A stretch of DNA of 64,000 bases from Thermoplasmata archaeon. Its GTDB lineage: Archaea > Thermoplasmatota > Thermoplasmata > Thermoplasmatales > Thermoplasmataceae. Below the pieces are notes generated by a model. The model made no database searches. It was not told the DNA's origin and worked only from the letters and a program-made list of their open reading frames with translations. The DNA is taken from the NCBI GenBank assembly GCA_021817455.1, contig JAKAUW010000013.1, positions 1 through 64,000 of the forward strand. Reading direction: 5' to 3'. Positions 30,982 to 42,376 of this stretch are shown piece after piece. The number at the start of each line of letters is the position of its first letter. The stretch's first letter is position 1. The position numbers were made by a program, and so were the translations under genes.

Positions 30982-32193
30982 ATGTTGTCACACATTCCTA
31001 TTGCTGATATCAGGGCCAGAAAAGTCATTGATTCAAGGGGAAACTTCACAGTAGAAGCCACAGTTGACCTGGAATATTCCACCGGGATATGCTCATCTCC
31101 TTCAGGTGCAAGCACTGGCGCAACAGAGATGCAGGCCTTTCCTAAAGGTGGGCCTGATGAGTCAATAAAGTTCTTCGAGAAGAATCTCAAAAACAAGCTC
31201 ATAGGCTTTAACTCACTAGACCAGCAGGGGTTAGACACACTGATCAGAGAACTGGACGGTTCAGAATATCTTTCTAACCTTGGCGGTAACATGGCTACAG
31301 CAATATCTGTGGCAAACGCCAAGGCTGTGGCTCAGGCTCTCGATATTCCGCTTTACAGATATGTAGGAGGTATGTTTTCACGTAGCCTTCCTAAACCGAT
31401 GGGTAACGTAATTGGTGGTGGCAGGCACTCAAGGAATGGCACAACAATTCAGGAGTTTCTCGTCTCTACACAGGGAAAGACTTTCATGGAGTCTGCCTAC
31501 CTCAACACCCGGGTTCACCGAAGAATTGGGGAACTTCTTTCTGACAAGCTGAAAGGAGTCAGCGTTGGAGTTGGAGACGAAAGGGCGTGGACTGCAAGCA
31601 TAGATGACCTTGAAGCTGTGGAAATAATAAAACAGGCGACAAAGGAACTCTCAAACGAACACAAGGTCAAGATTCTAATGGGAGTGGATTTCGCCGCAAC
31701 CGAATTTTTCAAGGATGGCAAGTATCACTACAAGAAAGAAGTGAAGTCTCGTGACCAGCAGATTGACTTTGCCGCATCGTTCACCAATGAACTTGGGTTT
31801 TATTTCAACGAAGACCCAATAGAAGATACCGATTTCGAGGGCTTTGCAGAAGTCACAAAGAAAGTTGGCAAAAAGGGCGTGATTGTGGGCGATGACATTT
31901 ATACAACAAACCCGAAAAGACTCAAAAAAGGCATAGAACTAAAGTCCACGAGTGGCATATTAATCAAAGTGAACCAGATTGGGACACTTTCCAGCACTGT
32001 AGAAACAGTAAAACTTGCGACAGAGGCAGGAATGAGCAGAACAGTCTCGCACAGAAGCGGAGAAACTACAGATGATTTCATTGCACACCTTTCCGTTGCC
32101 TTTGGGGCTGAGTTCATCAAGACAGGTACAATTGGCGGAGAAAGGCTGGCCAAGCTCAATGAACTGATACGCATAGAGGAAGATTTCCTTTAG
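30982..32193 (+). CDS. eno: Enolase
   Basis: Glycolytic enzyme that interconverts 2-phosphoglycerate and phosphoenolpyruvate. The start [16 protein letters not shown] and substrate loop SGASTGATE are typical. Magnesium ligands fall in [20 protein letters not shown] and [10 protein letters not shown]. The catalytic lysine is in [10 protein letters not shown] and SHRSGETTD follows. At 403 residues it is slightly short for the family but appears complete. A TATA-like AAATAAAATAAGCATA lies about 27 bp upstream. Confidence 0.96.
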
Positions 32194-32202
32194 GTCTTCG
32201 GA

Positions 32203-32976
32203 ATGCTGAACCTGGTTGGGCTCGGGCTTAGGGGAGTCAAAAGCCTGACGATCGAGCAATTTGAGGTGCTAAAAGCCTCAGACATAGTTTATTTTGAGAC
32301 TTACACTTCCATTTCCCCACAAGGTACTATCAGGGAGTTGGAACGAATCCTCGCCAAAAAGGTGCTTGCGGCAGAGAGAGAATTTGTGGAGTCCCAGGAG
32401 GAAATAATCCGGTTATCAGCTTATCAGAACGTCTCAATTGTGATCACGGGAGACCCACTGTCCGCTACGACTCATAATCAACTACGTGCCGATACAATGG
32501 GTGCAGGTATAGACGTGCAAACATTCGAAAATGCGTCAATTATTTCCGTAGTCCCAGGTAAGATAGGGTTGTTTCCTTACAGAATGGGGCCGCCCGTATC
32601 CGTTCCGTTCCCGGAGGACAATTTTCTTCCAAAGAGTGTACTGGAAAAAATCGGGGCAAACTTGTCACAGAACCAGCACACTATTCTTCTTCTGGACCTG
32701 AAAGAAGGAAGGACAATGTTTTCCCACGAGGCGCTTGAAACAATTCTCCAGATGGAAGGCCGATATAAGCTCGGAGTCATAAACGAGGAAATCATGGTGT
32801 TCTCCTTATCACGGGTCTCACAGGTCGGGGAAAGGTTGATTTTCGACACTGTAAAAAACATAATAAGTGCGCGTTTTGCAGAGTTTCCTTCAACCTTAGT
32901 AATACCGGCAAAGCTTAACCACAACGAAGAGGAATTTGCCGAAAAATTCACAAAAAAATGCAGTTATTTCAGGTAG
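32203..32976 (+). CDS. dphB: Diphthine synthase
   Basis: SAM-dependent methyltransferase that builds the diphthamide side chain on elongation factor 2, of the tetrapyrrole-methylase fold. The N terminus MLNLVGLGLRGVKSLT, the VYFETYTS block, VITGDPLSATTH and GLFPYRMGPPVSVPFPEDN are diagnostic. At 257 residues it is normal. It starts 9 bp after enolase and converges with the HTH gene, the two overlapping by 13 nt at their 3' ends. Confidence 0.95.
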   Translation: MLNLVGLGLRGVKSLTIEQFEVLKASDIVYFETYTSISPQGTIRELERILAKKVLAAEREFVESQEEIIRLSAYQNVSIVITGDPLSATTHNQLRADTMGAGIDVQTFENASIISVVPGKIGLFPYRMGPPVSVPFPEDNFLPKSVLEKIGANLSQNQHTILLLDLKEGRTMFSHEALETILQMEGRYKLGVINEEIMVFSLSRVSQVGERLIFDTVKNIISARFAEFPSTLVIPAKLNHNEEEFAEKFTKKCSYFR

Positions 32977-33563
32977 GTTTCAGCTACCTGCATAACGTAA
33001 CTTATGGGTATGCTGTATTTTCTGGAAACATACTGGGGATCAAGGTAATCGCAGAAGTCAAGCAGTATGTTTCTGGTCAATTCATCCGGAGAAATCCTGT
33101 TTATGTAGTAATGAAGCTTTCCAAGCAGGTTATCTTTTTCCTGAACCAGTTCAGTGCGCCTTTCCATAAGCTTTTTCAGTTCTTCTTCGGTTTTATTGAG
33201 GCTGGCCAGTAGTTCCTTGGGGTGTTTTGTAAGATCTGTGGTGTTTTCCTGCTCCTTTTCAGGGATTTCGTAACGTTTGATCTCAATAAAATTCCGGGAA
33301 TAGTCAGCAACAAGCGTAGAGAATCCTGTGGGTTTGTAAATTTTCCTTGGTGCTCCTGAGCTGCTAGGTATCATTCCTGCTGACAGGATAAGATTGGCCT
33401 TTTCCAGCAGATCAAGCTGTTTGTTTATGGCCTGCTGAGAAACGCCTATCCATCGGCTTATCTGGAAGGCATATGACTGGTCGAGGATAAGTCCTCTCAG
33501 TATCTCTCTCCTCGTATTGTTTTCCATTGCTGAAATAAGTGAAAGGATTTCCTCGTCAATCAT
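32964..33563 (-). CDS. ArsR-like winged-HTH regulator downstream of hsp20
   Basis: A 199-residue protein with an N-terminal winged HTH (NNTRREILRGLILDQSYAFQISRWIGVSQQAINKQLDLLEKANLI), the wing carrying SGAPRKIYKPT, then a long predicted coiled coil (about residues 115-150, KEL...LNKTEEELKKLMERRTELVQEK style) and a C-terminal helical part. This layout resembles archaeal ArsR-type heat-shock regulators such as Phr in the DNA-binding half only. It lies 9 bp after hsp20 in the same orientation, so it is probably cotranscribed with it and may bind the operator in front of hsp20. Confidence 0.8.
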   Translation of the reverse strand: MIDEEILSLISAMENNTRREILRGLILDQSYAFQISRWIGVSQQAINKQLDLLEKANLILSAGMIPSSSGAPRKIYKPTGFSTLVADYSRNFIEIKRYEIPEKEQENTTDLTKHPKELLASLNKTEEELKKLMERRTELVQEKDNLLGKLHYYINRISPDELTRNILLDFCDYLDPQYVSRKYSIPISYVMQVAETYLK

Positions 33564-33572
33564 TATTTGCCC

Positions 33573-34124
33573 TCAGTCTATGGAAATCTTCCTTCCGCCA
33601 GGGGTTTCTTTCTTTGCTCTTTCAACAGACACATCAAGTATCCCATTGATGAACTTCGCGTTTGCAGTCTCAGGCCTAAGCTCGTAATTGAAGTCTACAC
33701 TCTTGTAATATTTCCTTGGGCCCTCCTTGACCTCAATTGTTACGTTGTATTCCGACACGTTTAACTGGATATTCTCCTTCGCTATGCCGGGCAGTTCGTA
33801 AGTTATGAATACTTTGTCCTTGTCCTCAGTGAGATCTGTGATAGGTTCTCTGACATCCTTGTCCAGAAGCTTTGGTTCCTTCCCAAATGTCCTGCCCTGA
33901 GGAACATTTCCAAATTCTTCAAAAACTGGCTTTCCATCGGGGCCTATTTTATAGGAAAAGCCGTAAACATATGGGCCGAAGGTTTGCACATCGGAATCTT
34001 TGAGCATCCTGTCCCACATTTTCATCATTCTCTCGTTGAACCTGTCAAAATCGAAACCGAAGTTTTGGAAAAACTCCTCAAATTCGTCTCTCCACTCATC
34101 TTCTCTTCTCCTTTTGTATGGCAT
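33573..34124 (-). CDS. Small heat-shock protein Hsp20
   Basis: ATP-independent holdase chaperone of 183 residues. An N-terminal acidic/aromatic arm (EFEEFFQNFGFDFDRFNERM) precedes the alpha-crystallin domain (about 95-180) with VFITYELPGIAKENIQLNVSEYNV-type strands, split here by ELPGI and ending with NGILDVSVERAKK. There is no terminal IxI. AGGAGG lies eight bases before the ATG. The promoter region contains a 23-bp inverted repeat, and a regulator gene follows, which points to heat or stress control. Confidence 0.94.
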   Translation of the reverse strand: MPYKRRREDEWRDEFEEFFQNFGFDFDRFNERMMKMWDRMLKDSDVQTFGPYVYGFSYKIGPDGKPVFEEFGNVPQGRTFGKEPKLLDKDVREPITDLTEDKDKVFITYELPGIAKENIQLNVSEYNVTIEVKEGPRKYYKSVDFNYELRPETANAKFINGILDVSVERAKKETPGGRKISID

Positions 34125-34324: not shown

Positions 34325-36028
34325 GTGGAGATAATAAAAGAAGACATCATAATAATGGGAGGGGGAATGGCGGGTCTGAGAGCTGCCATTTCAGCTGCAG
34401 AGAGAAATCCAAAAGTCTCTGTCGGGCTCGTTTCTAAACTATACCCATTAAGATCACATTCAGTTTCAGCTGAAGGAGGAACCAGTGCCGTTTTAAATCC
34501 AAAAGACAGCTATGACCTTCATTCCTTTGACACAATCAAGGGAAGTGATTATCTTGCGGATCAGGACGCTGTGGAGGAGTTTGTCAGGATCGTGCCTGAG
34601 CAGATATACACCACTGACCGATGGGGATGTCCATGGTCAAGGAATCCTGATGGAACAATTTCTCAGAGGGACTTCGGTGGGCTAAGTTTCCCAAGGGCAA
34701 CATTTGCGGCGGACAAGACCGGGTTCCATGTAATGCAGACTCTCTTCAGCAGATGCCAGATGCATGATCGAATTCACTTCTACAATGAATATTTCGTTAC
34801 TTCGGCTATAATTGAGCAGAGTAGTTTCAACGCCCTGACTGCAATTAACCTCAAAACAGGGGAGTTTGTAGTGTTCCAGGGCAAAGCACTGATCTTTGCG
34901 GCTGGAGGTGCAGGGCGACTTTACCAGTTCAGCACTTATGCCAGTTCTGTGACAGGTGACGGTAATGCAATAGCATACCGTGCAGGGCTTACACTCAAGG
35001 ATATGGAGTTTATGCAGTTCCACCCAACTGGTCTGGTCCCATCTGGTATCCTTATCACGGAAGCTGCGAGGGCAGAGGGTGGCTATCTCAGGAACTCTGA
35101 GAACAAGAGGTTCATGGAGAAATATGCTCCCACGAAACTGGAGGAAGCACCCAGAGACATTGTTTCCAGGGCAATGATGTGGGAAATACTTGCTGGACGC
35201 GGTATCAGTGATGAACACGGGGATACACCACATATTCATCTTGACCTGACGCACATCGCAGACAAACTGGAGGAGAGGCTCCCCATGATTACGGAAATAG
35301 CAAAAAAATTCAACCACATTGACCCAGCAGAAGAACCAATTCCCGTGAGGCCGGCCACACATTATACAATGGGGGGAATTGAAGTGCACATTTCAACTGA
35401 GACCCAGGTGCCAGGTATTTTTGGGGCAGGGGAAAATGTTGCAATTAGTATACACGGTGCAAACCGGCTTGGCTCAAACTCTACAAATGAATGCCTTGCT
35501 TTTGGCAATGTCTCAGGGATCGCAGCCGCTGACTGGGCATCTGCACACGAGATTCCCCAGCTTGACAGGATCAAAGCAATGATTGAAGAAAAGAGGATAT
35601 GGGAAGGAATACTTAAAAACGGAAGCGGAGAAAGCATTGCCAGGATAAGGGAAGATCTCAGGACGGGTATGGATCTCAATGTTGGTGTGCTCCGAACCGA
35701 AAATGAACTTGCGCGGCAGATCAGGAATATCAATTCCCTGAAAGCCAGATATGAAAAAGTCACTGTTGAGGACAAGTCAAGAGTATTCAATCTGCAGCTG
35801 CAGGAAGCCCTGGAACTTGGATTCATGCTGGATCTTGCAGAAGTTATAACAATCGGCGCCTTAATGAGGAGGGAAAGCAGGGGTGCACACTACAGAAATG
35901 ATTTCCCCGCAAGGGATGACAAGAGATTCCTCAAGCACACGATAGTTAACTACACCAGGGATGGCCCTCAGTTCAGTTACAAAGATGTAGTCATAACCAA
36001 GTGGCAACCAGCCGCGAGAGTATACTGA
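34325..36028 (+). CDS. sdhA: Succinate dehydrogenase/fumarate reductase flavoprotein subunit (first cluster)
   Basis: FAD-containing catalytic subunit that oxidises succinate or reduces fumarate. The N-terminal nucleotide fold is IIIMGGGMAGLRAA, the histidine for covalent FAD is in RSHSVSAEGGTSA, the substrate region is FHPTGLVPSGILITEAARAEGG (seen in parts) and the C-terminal FAD contact is HGANRLGSNSTNE. At 567 residues it is complete. The start is GTG 34325. It is the first of four genes, sdhABCD, divergent from the hsp20 operon. Its flavoprotein is clearly distinct from the second cluster's. Confidence 0.95.
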   Translation: MEIIKEDIIIMGGGMAGLRAAISAAERNPKVSVGLVSKLYPLRSHSVSAEGGTSAVLNPKDSYDLHSFDTIKGSDYLADQDAVEEFVRIVPEQIYTTDRWGCPWSRNPDGTISQRDFGGLSFPRATFAADKTGFHVMQTLFSRCQMHDRIHFYNEYFVTSAIIEQSSFNALTAINLKTGEFVVFQGKALIFAAGGAGRLYQFSTYASSVTGDGNAIAYRAGLTLKDMEFMQFHPTGLVPSGILITEAARAEGGYLRNSENKRFMEKYAPTKLEEAPRDIVSRAMMWEILAGRGISDEHGDTPHIHLDLTHIADKLEERLPMITEIAKKFNHIDPAEEPIPVRPATHYTMGGIEVHISTETQVPGIFGAGENVAISIHGANRLGSNSTNECLAFGNVSGIAAADWASAHEIPQLDRIKAMIEEKRIWEGILKNGSGESIARIREDLRTGMDLNVGVLRTENELARQIRNINSLKARYEKVTVEDKSRVFNLQLQEALELGFMLDLAEVITIGALMRRESRGAHYRNDFPARDDKRFLKHTIVNYTRDGPQFSYKDVVITKWQPAARVY

Positions 36029-36037
36029 AGTGATCAT

Positions 36038-36781
36038 ATGGTATCTGAAAACTATGAATTTGTCATTAAAAGGAAAACTGAACATGGGGTGTCAAGGCAA
36101 GACAGGTTTCTAGTGCCCAAAAAGAAAATCTCCACTGTACTTGAGGGACTGGTCTACATCAGCGAGAATCTCGACGGCACCCTTTCTTTCCGTCATTCTT
36201 GCAGGATGGAAATTTGCGGTAGCTGTTCCATGGAGATTAACGGAAAGCCGAAAATGGCTTGCTCTACCATAGCTGGGTCGCTTGGAACGGGCACAATCAA
36301 AGTGTCACCACTGCCACATTACGAAGTGATAAAGGACCTTGTAGTTGACATTGAGCCGTTTTTTGATAAGTACAGGGCCGTGAAACCTTACGTCATCAGA
36401 AACAACGAGGATAAGCCAAGCAGCGAACTGCTCCAGACACCAGAGCAGTTCAAGCTCTATGAGCAATATTCTATGTGCATTAAATGTGGGCTATGCCTTG
36501 CAGCTTGCCCAATTAGCGGTTCAGATGAAGATTACCTTGGGCCCGCAGCCCTCGCTGCGGCTTTGAGATTCAATTTGGACAGCAGGGATGGCGGCTCCGG
36601 AATCCGGCTCGAAATTACCGACACAGATGAAGGGATAGCCAGATGTCACTATGCAGGTGAATGTTCCGAAGTCTGCCCGAAAGATGTTGATCCATCGAAG
36701 GCAATTCAGCTACTACGGAGAGCAGCGATATCACACGAATTGAAAAAAGTCTTCAGGAGGGGTGCAAAAGGTGGGAAGTAA
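36038..36781 (+). CDS. sdhB: Succinate dehydrogenase iron-sulfur subunit (first cluster)
   Basis: Electron-transfer subunit linking the flavin to the membrane anchor. It has the plant-type [2Fe-2S] motif CRMEICGSCSMEINGKPKMAC (in two parts), then CIKCGLCLAACP and CHYAGECSEVCPK for the other two clusters, arranged as in ordinary SdhB. At 247 residues it is of usual size. The gene follows sdhA by 9 bp and overlaps sdhC. Confidence 0.95.
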   Translation: MVSENYEFVIKRKTEHGVSRQDRFLVPKKKISTVLEGLVYISENLDGTLSFRHSCRMEICGSCSMEINGKPKMACSTIAGSLGTGTIKVSPLPHYEVIKDLVVDIEPFFDKYRAVKPYVIRNNEDKPSSELLQTPEQFKLYEQYSMCIKCGLCLAACPISGSDEDYLGPAALAAALRFNLDSRDGGSGIRLEITDTDEGIARCHYAGECSEVCPKDVDPSKAIQLLRRAAISHELKKVFRRGAKGGK

Positions 36782-37175
36782 CAGCGGAGTAATTGGCTGG
36801 GGAAATTTCTTCCATAAAGGCATAGGATACTTCGCCTATACGATGCATAGGATTTCTGGCATAGTCATTGTACTGTACCTTTATCTCCACTTCTTTGTTC
36901 TATCCAACCTTTTGAAAGGAGGCGCCACATTCAATAGCCTCATAACATCGTTTACCTATGGCCCCTTTGACATTTTCATTGTGATGGACATACTTCTTAC
37001 TCTGGTAATTTTCTACCATGGGGCCAATGGCATAAGGCTCATGTTGAATGAATTTGGCCTTGGGCTCAAACATCACAAGGTTATGTTCTATGTGCTGGAG
37101 TCTGCAGCAATGGCAGTTATGTTGCTCTTCCTTTACTTTGCCTGGCAGGTTCTGGTGTCTGGGGGCGGCGTCTGA
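36771..37175 (+). CDS. sdhC: Succinate dehydrogenase membrane anchor, cytochrome b subunit (SdhC)
   Basis: Three-helix heme b anchor of 134 residues. The helix-1 signature HRISGIVIVLYLYLHFF and the YHGANGIR motif after helix 2 carry the likely heme histidine ligands. GTG 36771 is chosen because AGGAGG lies ten bases before it. An earlier in-frame GTG at 36762 sits directly on that AGGAGG. The start overlaps the end of sdhB by 11 nt. It pairs with the downstream SdhD to form a quinone and heme site. Confidence 0.9.
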   Translation: MGSNSGVIGWGNFFHKGIGYFAYTMHRISGIVIVLYLYLHFFVLSNLLKGGATFNSLITSFTYGPFDIFIVMDILLTLVIFYHGANGIRLMLNEFGLGLKHHKVMFYVLESAAMAVMLLFLYFAWQVLVSGGGV

Positions 37176-37573
37176 TGAGTACAGAAGAAAATGGATCAGG
37201 AACACGCTACAAACATGGGCAAAGAACCACTGGATCTATTCAATGGTTATTCCAGGCTGCAAGCGGGGTCTTCATAATCTTCTTCCTGGCTGTGCATCTA
37301 TATGTTGCACACATAAATGGTGGCAGCCCAATTGAGTTGTTTGATACAGTTGTGGGCAATCTTCGGAATCCATGGTGGCTTGCCTTTTTTCTCGCGTTCC
37401 TATGGATTGTTACTTATCACGGGCTTAATGGAGTAAAGGGGGTCATCTATGAAATGGGCATCACGGCAAAGACGAGAAAACTTGTATCTTGGGGAATTAT
37501 TGCTTTATTCACAGTATCAGTTATTTACGGCACCCTTCTATCGTTGGTTGTAGCGCAGATGACTATCCCCTGA
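37175..37573 (+). CDS. sdhD: Succinate dehydrogenase membrane anchor (SdhD)
   Basis: A second three-helix anchor of 132 residues with a soluble N-terminal tail. FIIFFLAVHLYVAHI holds a histidine pair and IVTYHGLNGVKG matches the YHGxNG motif of SdhC, suggesting the two anchors are related. The ATG overlaps the sdhC stop codon as TGATG. It ends the first cluster; a 189-bp gap with a new promoter follows. Confidence 0.88.
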   Translation: MSTEENGSGTRYKHGQRTTGSIQWLFQAASGVFIIFFLAVHLYVAHINGGSPIELFDTVVGNLRNPWWLAFFLAFLWIVTYHGLNGVKGVIYEMGITAKTRKLVSWGIIALFTVSVIYGTLLSLVVAQMTIP

Positions 37574-37708
37574 TAATTTTATCTCAAGAAAAATCGACTC
37601 TTGGGTGAACACCAACTAGGATCTGGCATGTATTCTATTGGTATCTTGGATTTATGGCCGATAGTTCAGGGATTATAAAAAGCCTATCCTAAATAATCAT
37701 TAAAACGT

Positions 37709-37719
37709 TTATTAAAGTC
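37709..37719 (+). promoter_or_regulatory. Candidate promoter of the second sdh cluster
   Basis: The 189-bp gap after sdhD holds TTATTAAAGTC, about 50 bp before the ATG at 37763, with AAATAATCATTAAAACG just upstream. Either would make this cluster a separate transcription unit with a short leader. I see no inverted repeat there. Confidence 0.4.
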
Positions 37720-37762
37720 TGAGGTATCAACAGAACAAGCTAGCTGTAATTAAGTGATTCAC

Positions 37763-39481
37763 ATGGCTGAGCAATACATAAAAACTGAGTCGGACGTTCT
37801 GATCATAGGAGCAGGCGGAGCTGGTATGAGGGCAGCACTCGCTGCTTCAGATGCTGGCCTTAGGGTAACTGTTGTTTCCAAGTCATTGCTGGGCAAGGCA
37901 CATACTGTAATGGCCGAGGGAGGGATAGCCGCTGCCCTTGGTAATGTTGACCCCAAAGATAACTGGCAGGTGCACTTCGGGGATATTGTAGAAGAAGGAG
38001 TGTACATCGGAAACTGGAGAATGGCAGAGATTCTTGCCAAGGAGGCACCCCAGAGAGTGCACGAGTTGGAAAGGTTTGGAGCTCTTTTTGACCGCACTCC
38101 TGACGGCAGGATCTTGCAGAGGGCTTTCGGCGGCCATTCCTATAGAAGGCTTTGCCATGTAGGAGACAGAACCGGGCTTGAAATTATAAGGACACTTCAG
38201 GACCAAATAATCCACAAGGAAAACGTCACAATTTTCGATGAAATGTACGTTACAAATCTTCTGAAGAAAAATGGACGCGTCATAGGCGCTGTGGGAATGA
38301 AAATGGACAAAGGCGAGTTCCATCTCTTCAGAGCCAAGGCTGTAGTGCTTGCAACAGGAGGCTGCGGGAGAGTCTTTAAGGTCACATCAAACTCATGGGA
38401 ATCCACGGGGGATGGTTTAGGCATTGCCTTCAGGGCCGGAGCGACCTTGCAGGATATGGAAATGATCCAGTTCCACCCCACGGGAATGGTTTATCCGCCA
38501 GGCGTAAAAGGACTTCTTGTCACGGAAGGCGTCAGAGGGGAAGGTGGAATCCTTTACAACAAGGACAAAGAGAGGTTCATGCTCAGATACTCGCCACAAA
38601 AAAAGGAGTTGGATGCGAGGGATGTCGTTGCCAGGGCAAATTATGCAGAGATCCAGGCCGGCAGGGGCACTGAACACGGCGGAGTTTACCTGGATATTTC
38701 CTACAAGGGGGCAGATTTCGTTAAGAAGAAACTCCCAAGCATGTATATGCAGTTCATGGAATTCGCAGGTGTTGATATTACAAAGGAAATGATGGAAGTA
38801 GCCCCAACTACGCATTATCAGATGGGTGGCGTACGAGTAGACCCAGATACAGGGGCCACAACAGTGGATGGATTGTTTGCCGCTGGAGAAATCGCCTGCG
38901 GACTGCATGGAGCAAACAGGCTCGGTGGTAACTCAATGAGTGATATCCTCGTCTTTGGAAAGAAAGTGGGCGAGGGGGCATCTGAATTTGTCAAGAAGGT
39001 GGAGTTGATGGATGTCGAGGATTCTGAAGTCACAGGTGAGATTGAGAAGGTTCTATCTTTCCTTAAGCCTGATGGAACAAACGCATATGATCTCATAGAT
39101 GAGCTTACCACAACCATGTCGGAAAACGTGGGTATAGTCAGGGATGGCGAACACCTCCAGAAAGCTCTTGACACCATTGCAAATATAAAAGAAAAGTACT
39201 CAAAGGTTGCAGCTCCAGGTGGAAGAAAATACAACCATGGCCTATTGGCTGCACTTGAGCTTGGCAACATGCTCGTAGCTACTGAGGCGATAGTGAGATC
39301 TGCAATAATGAGACCTGAAAGCCGTGGAGCACACACTAGGCTGGATTTCCCGAAGAAAAACAGGGAATGGTTGAAGAACATTACGTGCACCAATTCAAAC
39401 GGTGACATGAAGTTAGATACCATTCCGGTACCGGAACTTCCGGATGAGTTCAAACCATATGTTAAACCGGAGGAATACTGA
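37763..39481 (+). CDS. Flavoprotein subunit of a second, Sdh1-like succinate dehydrogenase
   Basis: A 572-residue SdhA/FrdA-family flavoprotein, well separated from the first cluster's. It has IIGAGGAGMRAALAA for FAD binding, KAHTVMAEGGIAA with the flavin-linking histidine, and NPKDNWQVHFGD, RMAEILAKEAP, FGALFDRTPDGRI and HVGDRTGLEIIRT. From memory these blocks match the mycobacterial Sdh1 flavoprotein (Rv0248c type) closely, as does ITKEMMEVAPTTHYQMGGV. Catalytic and FAD contacts (TEGVRGEGG, HGANRLGGNS) are intact. ATG 37763 is preferred to GTG 37754. The direction of the reaction in the cell is unknown. Confidence 0.92.
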   Translation: MAEQYIKTESDVLIIGAGGAGMRAALAASDAGLRVTVVSKSLLGKAHTVMAEGGIAAALGNVDPKDNWQVHFGDIVEEGVYIGNWRMAEILAKEAPQRVHELERFGALFDRTPDGRILQRAFGGHSYRRLCHVGDRTGLEIIRTLQDQIIHKENVTIFDEMYVTNLLKKNGRVIGAVGMKMDKGEFHLFRAKAVVLATGGCGRVFKVTSNSWESTGDGLGIAFRAGATLQDMEMIQFHPTGMVYPPGVKGLLVTEGVRGEGGILYNKDKERFMLRYSPQKKELDARDVVARANYAEIQAGRGTEHGGVYLDISYKGADFVKKKLPSMYMQFMEFAGVDITKEMMEVAPTTHYQMGGVRVDPDTGATTVDGLFAAGEIACGLHGANRLGGNSMSDILVFGKKVGEGASEFVKKVELMDVEDSEVTGEIEKVLSFLKPDGTNAYDLIDELTTTMSENVGIVRDGEHLQKALDTIANIKEKYSKVAAPGGRKYNHGLLAALELGNMLVATEAIVRSAIMRPESRGAHTRLDFPKKNREWLKNITCTNSNGDMKLDTIPVPELPDEFKPYVKPEEY

Positions 39482-40233
39482 TGGAAGAGAAAATAACCTT
39501 GAATATTTACAGGCAGGATCCGTCCGTAGATGAGAAGGGGCGTTACCAGAAATTTGAAGTTCCTTATGTTGACGGAATGGTTGTCCTTGACGCAGTAAGA
39601 TACGTTCAGGAAAAAATTGACACTACGCTTGCAATAAGGTGGAACTGCAAGGCTGCCAAGTGTGGTTCTTGCTCAGCAGAGATCAACGGCATGCCAAGAC
39701 TCATGTGCAAGACGAGGATTGATAAGGTAGGTCACAACATCACTGTCTCTCCTATGGGTGCCTATCCTGTGATCAGGGATCTTGTCACAGATGTATCCGA
39801 GAACTGGGATATACTCAGGCAGATTCCAAAATTCACCCCTAAGGAGGATCTGGAGTTCCCCTGGAAGATTCAGCAGGAGGACGTGGAAAGGTCTCAGGAA
39901 TTCAAGAAATGCATACAGTGCTTCCTGTGCCAGGATGTATGCCATGTTGTCAGGGAACATTCCACACCATATTTTGGACCGGCTCACATAGTCAAGGCTG
40001 CGTCTCTTGATATGCATCCCATTGACTCAGTGGACAGGTCTACTTTCCTGAACAAAGTGGGGGGACTTGGCTTCTGCAACATTACAAAGTGCTGCCAGGA
40101 TGTCTGCCCGGAGCATATCCGCATCACGGACAATGCAATTATCCAGGAAAAGGAAAGGACCGTTGACATGACATATGATCCTATTGCAAGGTTAATAAAG
40201 AGAAGCAGAACAAAGGAAAAGAGTGTGGTCTAA
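39481..40233 (+). CDS. Iron-sulfur subunit of the Sdh1-like complex
   Basis: A 250-residue SdhB/FrdB-family protein. IRWNCKAAKCGSCSAEING carries the [2Fe-2S] cysteines, CIQCFLCQDVCHVV and GFCNITKCCQDVCPEHI the other clusters, followed by KITDNA-like RITDNAIIQEKER. The spacing, QEDVERSQEFKKC and LDMHPIDSVDR closely resemble mycobacterial Rv0247c as I remember it, and differ from the SdhB of the first cluster, which has CIKCGLCLAACP. The ATG overlaps the flavoprotein stop as TGATG. Confidence 0.92.
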   Translation: MEEKITLNIYRQDPSVDEKGRYQKFEVPYVDGMVVLDAVRYVQEKIDTTLAIRWNCKAAKCGSCSAEINGMPRLMCKTRIDKVGHNITVSPMGAYPVIRDLVTDVSENWDILRQIPKFTPKEDLEFPWKIQQEDVERSQEFKKCIQCFLCQDVCHVVREHSTPYFGPAHIVKAASLDMHPIDSVDRSTFLNKVGGLGFCNITKCCQDVCPEHIRITDNAIIQEKERTVDMTYDPIARLIKRSRTKEKSVV

Positions 40234-40234
40234 A

Positions 40235-40966
40235 ATGATAGGCAATCAGAATCAGACAAGGCAGAAAACGAACAGGTCAATGACTAGGATTATACCAAAG
40301 GAGTTTCTGGAGCCAAACTGGAGGCTTTGGTCATTTATCCTGCTTATTGTGTTAGGAGTCTTCCTTATGGCCGTATACCCTGTGTATTACAGCAGTACCA
40401 CGGGGCTCACCGATCCTTTCTACTCTCCGACCCTTGCAGTGGTACCTCTTGTGGCGCTGTTCAGGTTTACCTGCTATGCATACAGGAAAGACTACCACAG
40501 GCACGTTTTCAATCACCCAAGAACCTGTGAAATCGGGTTCAGGGCTGAATTCAAAGGAAGAGAATACACCGGAGAAACAAGGCTTCTCAGAATAGAGAAT
40601 GCACACCGGTACTTCATGTATTTCGCAGTTGCGATACTGCCATTCTTCTACTATGACATATACCTTTCAATGGTGTACCAGCCCGGGTTCACACTTACAC
40701 TCGGTGGCCTGTTGCTAATAGTCAACACGGCACTCGTTACCCTCTATACATTCTCCTGCCATGCTATCAGGCACCTGGTCGGAGGAAACATAGACTGTTT
40801 CAGCTGCAAGCACAACACGAGAAACAAGATATTCAACGGTCAGACCTTACTGAATGCGCACCACGAGACATTTGCCTGGCTAAGCCTAACAATGTTCTTC
40901 CTGGTTGACCTATTCATAAGGGCTACAGTTGCCGGAGTGATACCGAACATAGTGCTTCTGCACTGA
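40235..40966 (+). CDS. Five-helix membrane anchor of the Sdh1-like complex with a Cys/His-rich loop
   Basis: A 243-residue membrane protein with five predicted helices (about residues 22-43, 60-78, 118-140, 150-172 and 210-232), in the place of the two small anchors of the first cluster. Between helices 4 and 5 lies SCHAIRHLVGGNIDCFSCKH, with three cysteines and three histidines, then NAHHETFAWLSL. The mycobacterial Sdh1 anchor has the same architecture (TCHSxRH..., NARHxxFAW from memory) and was reported to hold a Rieske-type [2Fe-2S] cluster. The same could apply here. An in-frame GTG at 40223 is an alternative start. Confidence 0.85.
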   Translation: MIGNQNQTRQKTNRSMTRIIPKEFLEPNWRLWSFILLIVLGVFLMAVYPVYYSSTTGLTDPFYSPTLAVVPLVALFRFTCYAYRKDYHRHVFNHPRTCEIGFRAEFKGREYTGETRLLRIENAHRYFMYFAVAILPFFYYDIYLSMVYQPGFTLTLGGLLLIVNTALVTLYTFSCHAIRHLVGGNIDCFSCKHNTRNKIFNGQTLLNAHHETFAWLSLTMFFLVDLFIRATVAGVIPNIVLLH

Positions 40967-40976
40967 GGTGAAAAAT

Positions 40977-41162
40977 ATGGCGAGAAATCTAAGCAGCGTA
41001 AGGTATCCACTGTTCTTCCTCGGTCTGTTCATAATAGAAATTGGAGGGCTCCTCTACCATTTCATGAACATTTCCGAGAACGATGTGGTGGCGTTTGCGG
41101 CCGTGGGATTCATCGTGTTCTTTCTTTCACTCGCTGTCCCCTGGTCCACAAACAAACACTAA
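40977..41162 (+). CDS. Small two-helix membrane protein in the Sdh1-like cluster
   Basis: A 61-residue protein (MARNLSSVRYPLFFLGLF...) with two hydrophobic segments and a short charged C terminus. GAGGTG lies seven bases before ATG 40977. It immediately follows the five-helix anchor and is the last gene before a T-rich terminator, so it probably belongs to the complex as a small extra subunit. No family is recognised. Confidence 0.65.
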   Translation: MARNLSSVRYPLFFLGLFIIEIGGLLYHFMNISENDVVAFAAVGFIVFFLSLAVPWSTNKH

Positions 41163-41190
41163 TTTTTTTAAAAAAAATTAATTTTTTAAA
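41161..41190. terminator. Bidirectional T-tract terminator
   Basis: A run of T, A and T tracts (TTTTTTTAAAAAAAATTAATTTTTTAA) fills the 15 bp between the convergent small membrane protein and DedA genes and extends into the DedA end. It provides U-rich ends in both directions. Confidence 0.5.
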
Positions 41191-41828
41191 GCCTTTCTAC
41201 TTTTCAATTTTGTGTATACCCACGCTATAACTATAATGGCAAGGGCTGCAAGCGCCAGGTCTGTGAACTTGTTGAAGGCACTGATTATCTGTTCCCAGTG
41301 GGGGCCAAGAAGGTAACCTAGGTAAATCAGGATTGAGTCCCAGATCATGGCACCTACAAAAGTCAGTACCAGGAAATGCGCCCTGTTCATTTTTGCAATG
41401 CCCGCTGGTATTGAAATGAATGTTCTGAATATAGGGACGAGCCTGGTTAGGAATACTGAAGGAGTCCCATATCTCTCAAACCAAAACTGGGTCCGGTCTA
41501 TGGAACCTTTGTCAAGCATCACGTATCTTCCGTACCTGAGGATAAGTGGTATACCTCCATAGTCCCCGAGCATGTAAGCAAGGTATGCCCCAACCATGTT
41601 GCCAACGCTACCTGCAAGAAGCAGCAGAATGAAAGCGGGAATTCCTATTTCGGAAGGCAATATCCCGCTGTAGGCAAGGTAGCCTCCAAAAGCCATAACT
41701 ACTTCAGACGGTATGGGGAGCAGAAGCCCTTCAAGAAGCATCAGGATAAAAATTCCGGGATAGCCTAGTGTTGTTATGATTGATATAACCTCATTGGACA
41801 CCATAGTGGCTAATGCAAGATCTAACAC
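41178..41828 (-). CDS. DedA-family membrane protein
   Basis: Polytopic protein of 216 residues of the DedA/SNARE-associated family, proposed flippases or lipid-linked transporters. Family features are GYPGIFILMLLEGLLLPIPSEVVM, GNMVGAYLAYMLGDYGG, and the FLTRLVPIFRTFISIPAGIAKM block with its conserved Arg and Pro, then GAMIWDSILIYLGYLLG. The start is GTG 41828; the in-frame ATG eight codons later is an alternative. Confidence 0.9.
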   Translation of the reverse strand: MLDLALATMVSNEVISIITTLGYPGIFILMLLEGLLLPIPSEVVMAFGGYLAYSGILPSEIGIPAFILLLLAGSVGNMVGAYLAYMLGDYGGIPLILRYGRYVMLDKGSIDRTQFWFERYGTPSVFLTRLVPIFRTFISIPAGIAKMNRAHFLVLTFVGAMIWDSILIYLGYLLGPHWEQIISAFNKFTDLALAALAIIVIAWVYTKLKSRKALKN

Positions 41829-41863
41829 GTGAACCGATCTTGTCCCTTTATTTATAAGGTTCG

Positions 41864-42376
41864 TCAGTCGTTACCGGGCATTTTCGCATAGAATTCTCCA
41901 AGCATAGCCCTTGTTTCCTCTTCCGGCAGTTCAAATTTCCTCTTTTTGATGTTACTTTCCAGCAGCATAAGTTCCGCCAGTTCATCAGGGTAGCCTTGAG
42001 CATAGACGATCTCCTTGATCTGGGAATTCATGATCATCTTTGAGCAAACAATGCATGGGTGTGTGGTTATGTAAATAGTTGCCCCGCTGATGCTTACTCC
42101 ATGCACTGCAGCCTGTATAATTGCATTCTGTTCAGCATGAAGACCCCTGCAAAGCTCATGCCTCTCGCCGGAGGGCACATTGAGGTCATCCCTGATGCAG
42201 CCAACAACGTCACAGTGGACTGTACCTGATGGGGGGCCATTATAGCCGGTTGCAAGGATGTTCTTGTCCTTCACGATAACGGCACCGACTTTTCTCCTAG
42301 TGCAGTTTGCTCTAGAAGCAGCGAGAAACGCCATCCTCATGAAATACTGGTCCCAAGTGGGCCTGTTATCTCCCAT
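41864..42376 (-). CDS. dCMP deaminase (ComEB type)
   Basis: Zinc-dependent cytidine/deoxycytidylate deaminase of 170 residues that supplies dUMP for thymidylate synthesis. The zinc motif HAEQN (with the catalytic glutamate) and [11 protein letters not shown] are intact. [25 protein letters not shown] and the insert C...CIRD...C...HELCRGL, with extra Cys/His residues of the dCMP deaminase group, identify the subfamily. It is divergent from the P-type ATPase. Confidence 0.92.

Follow-up and report, generated by a model that had tools for sequence, protein, structure and literature searches.

Why would a single acid-loving archaeon carry two complete operons for respiratory complex II (succinate dehydrogenase/fumarate reductase) directly next to one another? 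The question is raised by a 64,000-nucleotide stretch of a Thermoplasmata archaeon of the order Thermoplasmatales (GenBank assembly GCA_021817455.1, contig JAKAUW010000013.1, positions 1 to 64,000; hereafter the window), in which cluster 1 (34325-37573) and cluster 2 (37754-41162) together comprise eight uninterrupted genes, all transcribed from the forward strand. A first-pass annotation, made from the sequence alone, had described two complete complex II operons back to back, and all eight genes are found where it had placed them (Table 1). Mis-assembly of the pair was considered and is very unlikely, since the two clusters are also adjacent in two other genomes of the same genus (G245 and G433; labels beginning with G, L, f and g denote genomes, loci, families and genera of the comparison set). 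We think it likely, from comparison of sequences across the order, that the window has caught the overlap stage of a displacement in situ by an interchangeable succinate dehydrogenase, with two unrelated complexes occupying one slot.

One slot, two complexes

The sdh genes of the window lie in a conserved slot, with the order eno, dph5, a helix-turn-helix (HTH) gene, hsp20, sdh, dedA and dCMP deaminase, which is occupied by either cluster or by the two together, depending on the genome. G286 and G148 have only cluster 1 there (dedA was not seen in G148), and G435 and G436 only cluster 2; the window genome, G245 and G433 have the two together, and in G230 cluster 2 is in the slot and cluster 1 is elsewhere in the genome. 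In G436, the sister of the window genome in the tree of elongation factor 2 (EF-2; 97% identity), the 3.27 kbp of the window containing cluster 1 are reduced to 107 bp. The first part of these 107 bp is a decayed remnant that aligns with the beginning of sdhA1 (alignment score 59, with a shuffle maximum of 39), and G436 has therefore lost cluster 1. In G435 (L158, 3741-5649) and G434 (L160, 1443-3896) the slot also contains a transporter gene between hsp20 and sdhA2, which we take to be EamA-like.

Complex II of type 1 or type 2 is present in 85 of the 117 genomes sampled from the order, with the divergent form of the G046/G050 group counted as type 1. A single type is present in 66 of the 85 (type 1 only in 34, type 2 only in 32), and the type that is kept varies even among close genera. 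The remaining 19 genomes have both, with the clusters within 4 kbp of each other in 14 of them.

Cluster 2 beside resident operons

Cluster 2 also adjoins resident operons at sites that are empty in other genomes. In family f4, a 3.6 kbp block of A2-B2-C2-X2 lies directly upstream of the resident A1 operon, at a site where G413 and G412 have only 75–153 bp; in G339, a 4.7 kbp block with cluster 2 adjoins the resident A1 operon, and the same site spans 190 bp in G221, a member of the same genus. Inspection by eye of the junctions of the two inserts revealed neither a target-site duplication nor a transposase. The G339 insert includes about 1 kbp past sdhA2 with an ATPase-like reading frame (L048, 11166-12174), perhaps part of the transferred piece.

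The cluster 2 and EF-2 trees conflict at both places. In the cluster 2 tree, f4 groups with G128 and G180 (a constraint placing f4 outside is rejected, p=9e-4) and G339 with Cuniculiplasma, whereas in the EF-2 tree f4 falls outside the family and G339 groups with G050 and G046. The simplest reading of these trees would be that cluster 2 was transferred into f4 and into G339, the alternative being that it was lost from the genomes with empty sites. By the displacement that we propose, the cluster 2 operon would move among Thermoplasmatales as a four-gene unit and settle beside a resident sdh operon, after which one of the two operons may be lost; the newcomer could outlast the resident.

Cluster 2 belongs to class F

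Judged from its sequence, cluster 2 encodes a complex II of class F (the Sdh1 type), with Mycobacterium smegmatis Sdh1 (PDB 7D6V) as its nearest relative. In the classification given by a review (PMC10238741), Sdh1 is a class F enzyme and has a Rieske cluster in the membrane. The first-pass annotation had recognised the mycobacterial Sdh1 kind from several sequence blocks, and these are present, with the correction that the first reads VDPKDNW and not NPKDNW. Chains of 7D6V are the best solved relatives of A2, B2 and C2: A2 scores 607.7 bits against 7D6V_A and has the catalytic motifs in place (its top NCBIfam model, PRK07803, scores 775.5 bits, below its cut-off of 819), B2 scores 280.9 bits against 7D6V_B and passes the cut-off of PRK12386, and C2 matches 7D6V_C with 109.4 bits (E=2e-30). 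In trees of SdhA and SdhB, cluster 2 groups with other class F sets and apart from A1 and B1.

Family-model searches with C2 matched no Pfam or NCBIfam family. Its AlphaFold model, which is of moderate quality (predicted local distance difference test, pLDDT, 72.8), shows five long helices and has 7D6V_C as its sole significant Foldseek match (E=2.7e-7). Sequence and Foldseek thus agree on a true homology of the five-helix anchor with mycobacterial Sdh1 SdhC, as had been proposed. Seven residues (C84, C102, C179, H128, H180, H184 and H214) are invariant in all 36 SdhC of one alignment (34 Thermoplasmatota anchors, C2 of the window and the part of the M. smegmatis chain that could be aligned) and in all 30 of a second one, which covers 29 bacterial anchors. 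Because these Cys and His residues are invariant in all homologues examined, the membrane Rieske site is probably retained in cluster 2, and a conserved cofactor would have two Cys and two His ligands among the seven. Their position at the cytoplasmic side, facing SdhB, is suggested by the helix prediction together with the positive-inside rule. Electrons would then pass from FAD through [2Fe-2S], [4Fe-4S] and [3Fe-4S] clusters to a Rieske-type cluster, bound by Cys and His where the five-helix anchor faces the cytoplasm, and on to quinone. Beside the conserved Cys and His residues is a CxxC motif (C2 residues 192-195; window 40796-40807), which is present in all Thermoplasmatales anchors examined, in other Thermoplasmatota and in about 12 of the 29 bacterial anchors, and absent from the actinobacterial anchors sampled.

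The fourth gene of the operon, X2, corresponds to the 61-residue extra membrane protein of the first-pass annotation, with 61 residues from an inner ATG, 64 from a GTG, and two hydrophobic segments. An X2 profile matched 25 of 390 genomes in the phylum sample, 20 strongly and five weakly (E above 6e-4); the latter look like chance. The strong matches are in exactly the 20 genomes of the order with class F, adjoining C2, and none was found in the genomes of this sample without class F. X2 also accompanies those class F operons that appear to have been transferred, and this co-occurrence makes it a good candidate subunit, probably a lineage-specific accessory subunit of the Thermoplasmatales complex.

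Distribution and origin of class F

Class F anchors are present in 158 of the 390 Thermoplasmatota genomes, and a scan of named genomes, covering the best 80 of at least 577 loci, found class F in more than ten bacterial phyla. The matches listed include loci in Acidobacteria, Deltaproteobacteria, Melainabacteria, Gemmatimonadetes, Planctomycetes, Poribacteria, Rokubacteria, Verrucomicrobia, Chloroflexi, Dormibacterota, Actinobacteria and others. With class F so widespread in bacterial phyla and Thermoplasmatota, mycobacteria are no special partner. The genes are ordered A-B-C-X in all Thermoplasmatales examined and C-A-B in those bacterial and other Thermoplasmatota loci that are long enough to show the order. 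The Thermoplasmatales sets form one clade in the SdhA, SdhB and concatenated trees, and in the unrooted concatenated tree the nearest set is that of Dormibacterota/Chloroflexota (Shimodaira-Hasegawa-like approximate likelihood ratio test, SH-aLRT, 99). A single origin shared with the class F sets of the remaining Thermoplasmatota is rejected (approximately unbiased, AU, test, p=3e-4). We see an even chance that the Thermoplasmatales carry a distinct subclass of Rieske-type complex II, with A-B-C-X order, X2 as an extra subunit and a cytoplasmic CxxC adjoining the Rieske site, and that it spreads as a unit, settling repeatedly beside an unrelated resident, with one of the two then deleted.

Three Thermoplasmatota genomes of other orders (G013, G161 and G274) have two or three class F anchors each. 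Side-by-side pairs of complex II are also found outside the Thermoplasmatales: in metagenome-assembled genomes of a deltaproteobacterium (L089, 1277-8577) and a member of the Phycisphaerales (L119, 3142-9357), a different SdhA/SdhB set is directly 5' of the class F C-A-B genes.

Cluster 1 is a class A complex

Cluster 1 is by sequence a class A complex II, with the two-haem Sdh2 of M. smegmatis as its nearest solved relative, and its description as an ordinary sdhABCD with two three-helix haem anchors stands. A1 scores above the cut-offs of PRK06069 and TIGR01812, has M. smegmatis Sdh2 (6LUM_A, 493 bits) as its best solved relative, and retains the FAD-His and catalytic His/Arg motifs; B1 is above the cut-off of PRK05950, with three Fe-S Cys motifs read in the sequence. 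Both anchors match Sdh_cyt (PF01127), with haem-type His43 and His86 in C1, which also matches 6LUM_C (E=1e-6), and His41 and His82 in D1. Two three-helix anchors and two bis-His haem sites, as expected of class A, are thus recognisable at the sequence level, and the haems themselves are predicted. In M. smegmatis Sdh2 the haem ligands are C47, C87, D65 and D107 (PMC7447783). No SdhF-type single-helix subunit was identified in the cluster 1 operon, to which the search was confined.

A divergent A1-type flavoprotein (43–49% identity), with a weak B1 match, is encoded at L048, L165, L169, L170 and L171. These loci, from the group of G046, G050, G221, G236 and G339, are without recognisable C1 or D1 anchors and possibly represent a third class of complex II in the order.

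Table 1. Features of the double sdh locus and its borders in the window.
Feature	Coordinates	Strand	Description
left slot border	30982..34124	.	eno, dph5, HTH, hsp20
A1	34325..36028	+	SdhA flavoprotein, class A complex II, 567 aa
B1	36038..36781	+	cluster 1 iron-sulfur subunit, 247 aa
C1	36762..37175	+	first three-helix haem anchor (predicted), 137 aa
D1	37175..37573	+	second three-helix haem anchor (predicted), 132 aa
inter-operon region	37574..37753	+	5' of cluster 2; conserved in G436 (cluster 1 deleted there)
A2	37754..39481	+	class F (Sdh1-type) flavoprotein, 575 aa
B2	39481..40233	+	class F iron-sulfur subunit, 250 aa
C2	40223..40966	+	single five-helix anchor, homologous to Sdh1 SdhC
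X2	40968..41162	+	two-helix membrane protein, 61-64 aa
right slot border	41178..42376	-	dedA, dCMP deaminase

Alternative explanations

The first-pass annotation had suggested a division of labour between the two complexes. In this reading one complex would oxidise succinate under air and the other reduce fumarate, or serve another quinone potential, at low oxygen. The chemical difference between the di-haem anchors of class A and the Rieske anchor of class F would suit such a split, as would the presence of both a haem-copper oxidase and a bd oxidase in the window genome and the report that the M. smegmatis pair is not equivalent. The comparisons do not bear it out: 66 of the 85 genomes with complex II have a single type, which differs even between close genera, the closest relative of the window has dropped cluster 1, and A1 and A2 have in common the FAD-His, the catalytic His/Arg motifs and a Glu. 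This Glu occupies a Gln/Glu site that was tried as a marker of reaction direction and is quoted as Gln in mycobacterial Sdh2; it does not discriminate, because Glu is found in A1, A2 and all 109 class F flavoproteins. Moreover, cluster 2 is the sole complex II of Cuniculiplasma divulgatum S5 (G093; PMC5155288), and its A and B subunits were detected in the proteome under optimal growth (PMC7285479). We therefore regard a division of labour as rather unlikely. Several points nevertheless weigh against displacement. Both types are kept in all nine genomes sampled from genus g20 (family f4) and in all four from g6, where they are non-adjacent, so that a genome can hold the two stably, as would agree with a degree of specialisation; the order in which the two clusters arrived in the window's own lineage is not settled; EF-2 is a single species marker; and most of the genomes are draft assemblies, in which presence and absence depend on completeness. 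On balance, interchangeable enzymes and displacement in situ appear to fit better than a fixed oxidase/reductase split, because of the predominance of single types, the sharing of the slot, the deletion scar and the inserts beside resident operons.

Where cluster 2 came from has also been explained in other ways. A recent transfer from Actinobacteria, as raised by the first-pass annotation with nesting among mycobacterial Sdh1 sequences, would agree with the M. smegmatis chains being the best solved relatives, a match that reflects which structures exist; it is contradicted by the rejection of one clade with Actinomycetota (AU test, p=1.7e-6), by the separate deep clade of Thermoplasmatales in both the SdhA and SdhB trees, by the lack of the C2 CxxC in actinobacterial anchors and by the different gene order, and we consider it extremely unlikely. 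The opposite possibility against which that annotation had set its reading, a recent duplication of an sdh operon within one archaeal lineage, draws on the adjacency of the clusters and nothing else, and is effectively excluded by the roughly 38% identity of A1 and A2, each with its own orthologues across the order, and by anchors of unrelated families. As for the cofactor, C2 might be without a Rieske cluster, or its CxxC and conserved Cys and His residues might serve another metal centre or a disulfide: three invariant Cys and four His exceed the two plus two that a Rieske cluster needs, and the CxxC recurs throughout the Thermoplasmatales and in part of the bacterial anchors. Each invariant Cys and His is also present in the 7D6V chain within the aligned stretch, which makes this quite improbable.

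Relation to known systems

If our reading is correct, the sdh slot would show how, in nature, a respiratory chain exchanges one whole complex for another, and would record this clearly at the level of sequence, with both complexes, either one, a scar and empty sites visible in close relatives. Operon displacement in situ is reportedly the subject of a study by Omelchenko et al. from 2003. The window resembles it in that genes are replaced at a fixed chromosomal position, and differs in that whole complexes with unrelated anchors alternate, with the single and double states and a scar to be seen.

Class F, for which the reference structure is mycobacterial, thereby becomes a large family that spans bacteria and archaea and gains a new candidate subunit. 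Its single anchor would also explain why a study published in 2013 noted SdhD as missing from A-, E- and Gplasma (PMC3750248), and so offers an explanation for this gap in acid-mine Thermoplasmatales. The complex II of C. divulgatum (CSP5_0486-0489) has the same four-gene class F operon with X2 as cluster 2 and differs in being the only complex II there, one that the literature calls an ordinary complex II; as a cultured organism with class F only, Cuniculiplasma makes the biochemistry testable.

Among the solved structures, M. smegmatis Sdh2 (PDB 6LUM) shares with cluster 1 two three-helix anchors and four haem-type His residues and is the best match of A1 and C1, whereas the anchor sequences are only remotely related; its SdhF is comparable to X2 in kind and not in sequence. 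M. smegmatis Sdh1 (7D6V/7D6X) has SdhA, SdhB and a single SdhC homologous to those of cluster 2, with the anchor Cys and His residues in common, but is ordered C-A-B, whereas cluster 2 is ordered A-B-C-X, adds X2 and the anchor CxxC, and falls outside the actinobacterial clade. The closest parallel to the window as a whole is Mycobacterium tuberculosis, in which the same two classes are present in one cell (Sdh1, Rv0247c-0249c; Sdh2, Rv3316-3319) and back each other up, with Sdh1 as the main aerobic enzyme (PMC9426501). Judged by their gene numbers, its two loci lie far from each other, whereas the clusters of the window share one slot and alternate in it among relatives.

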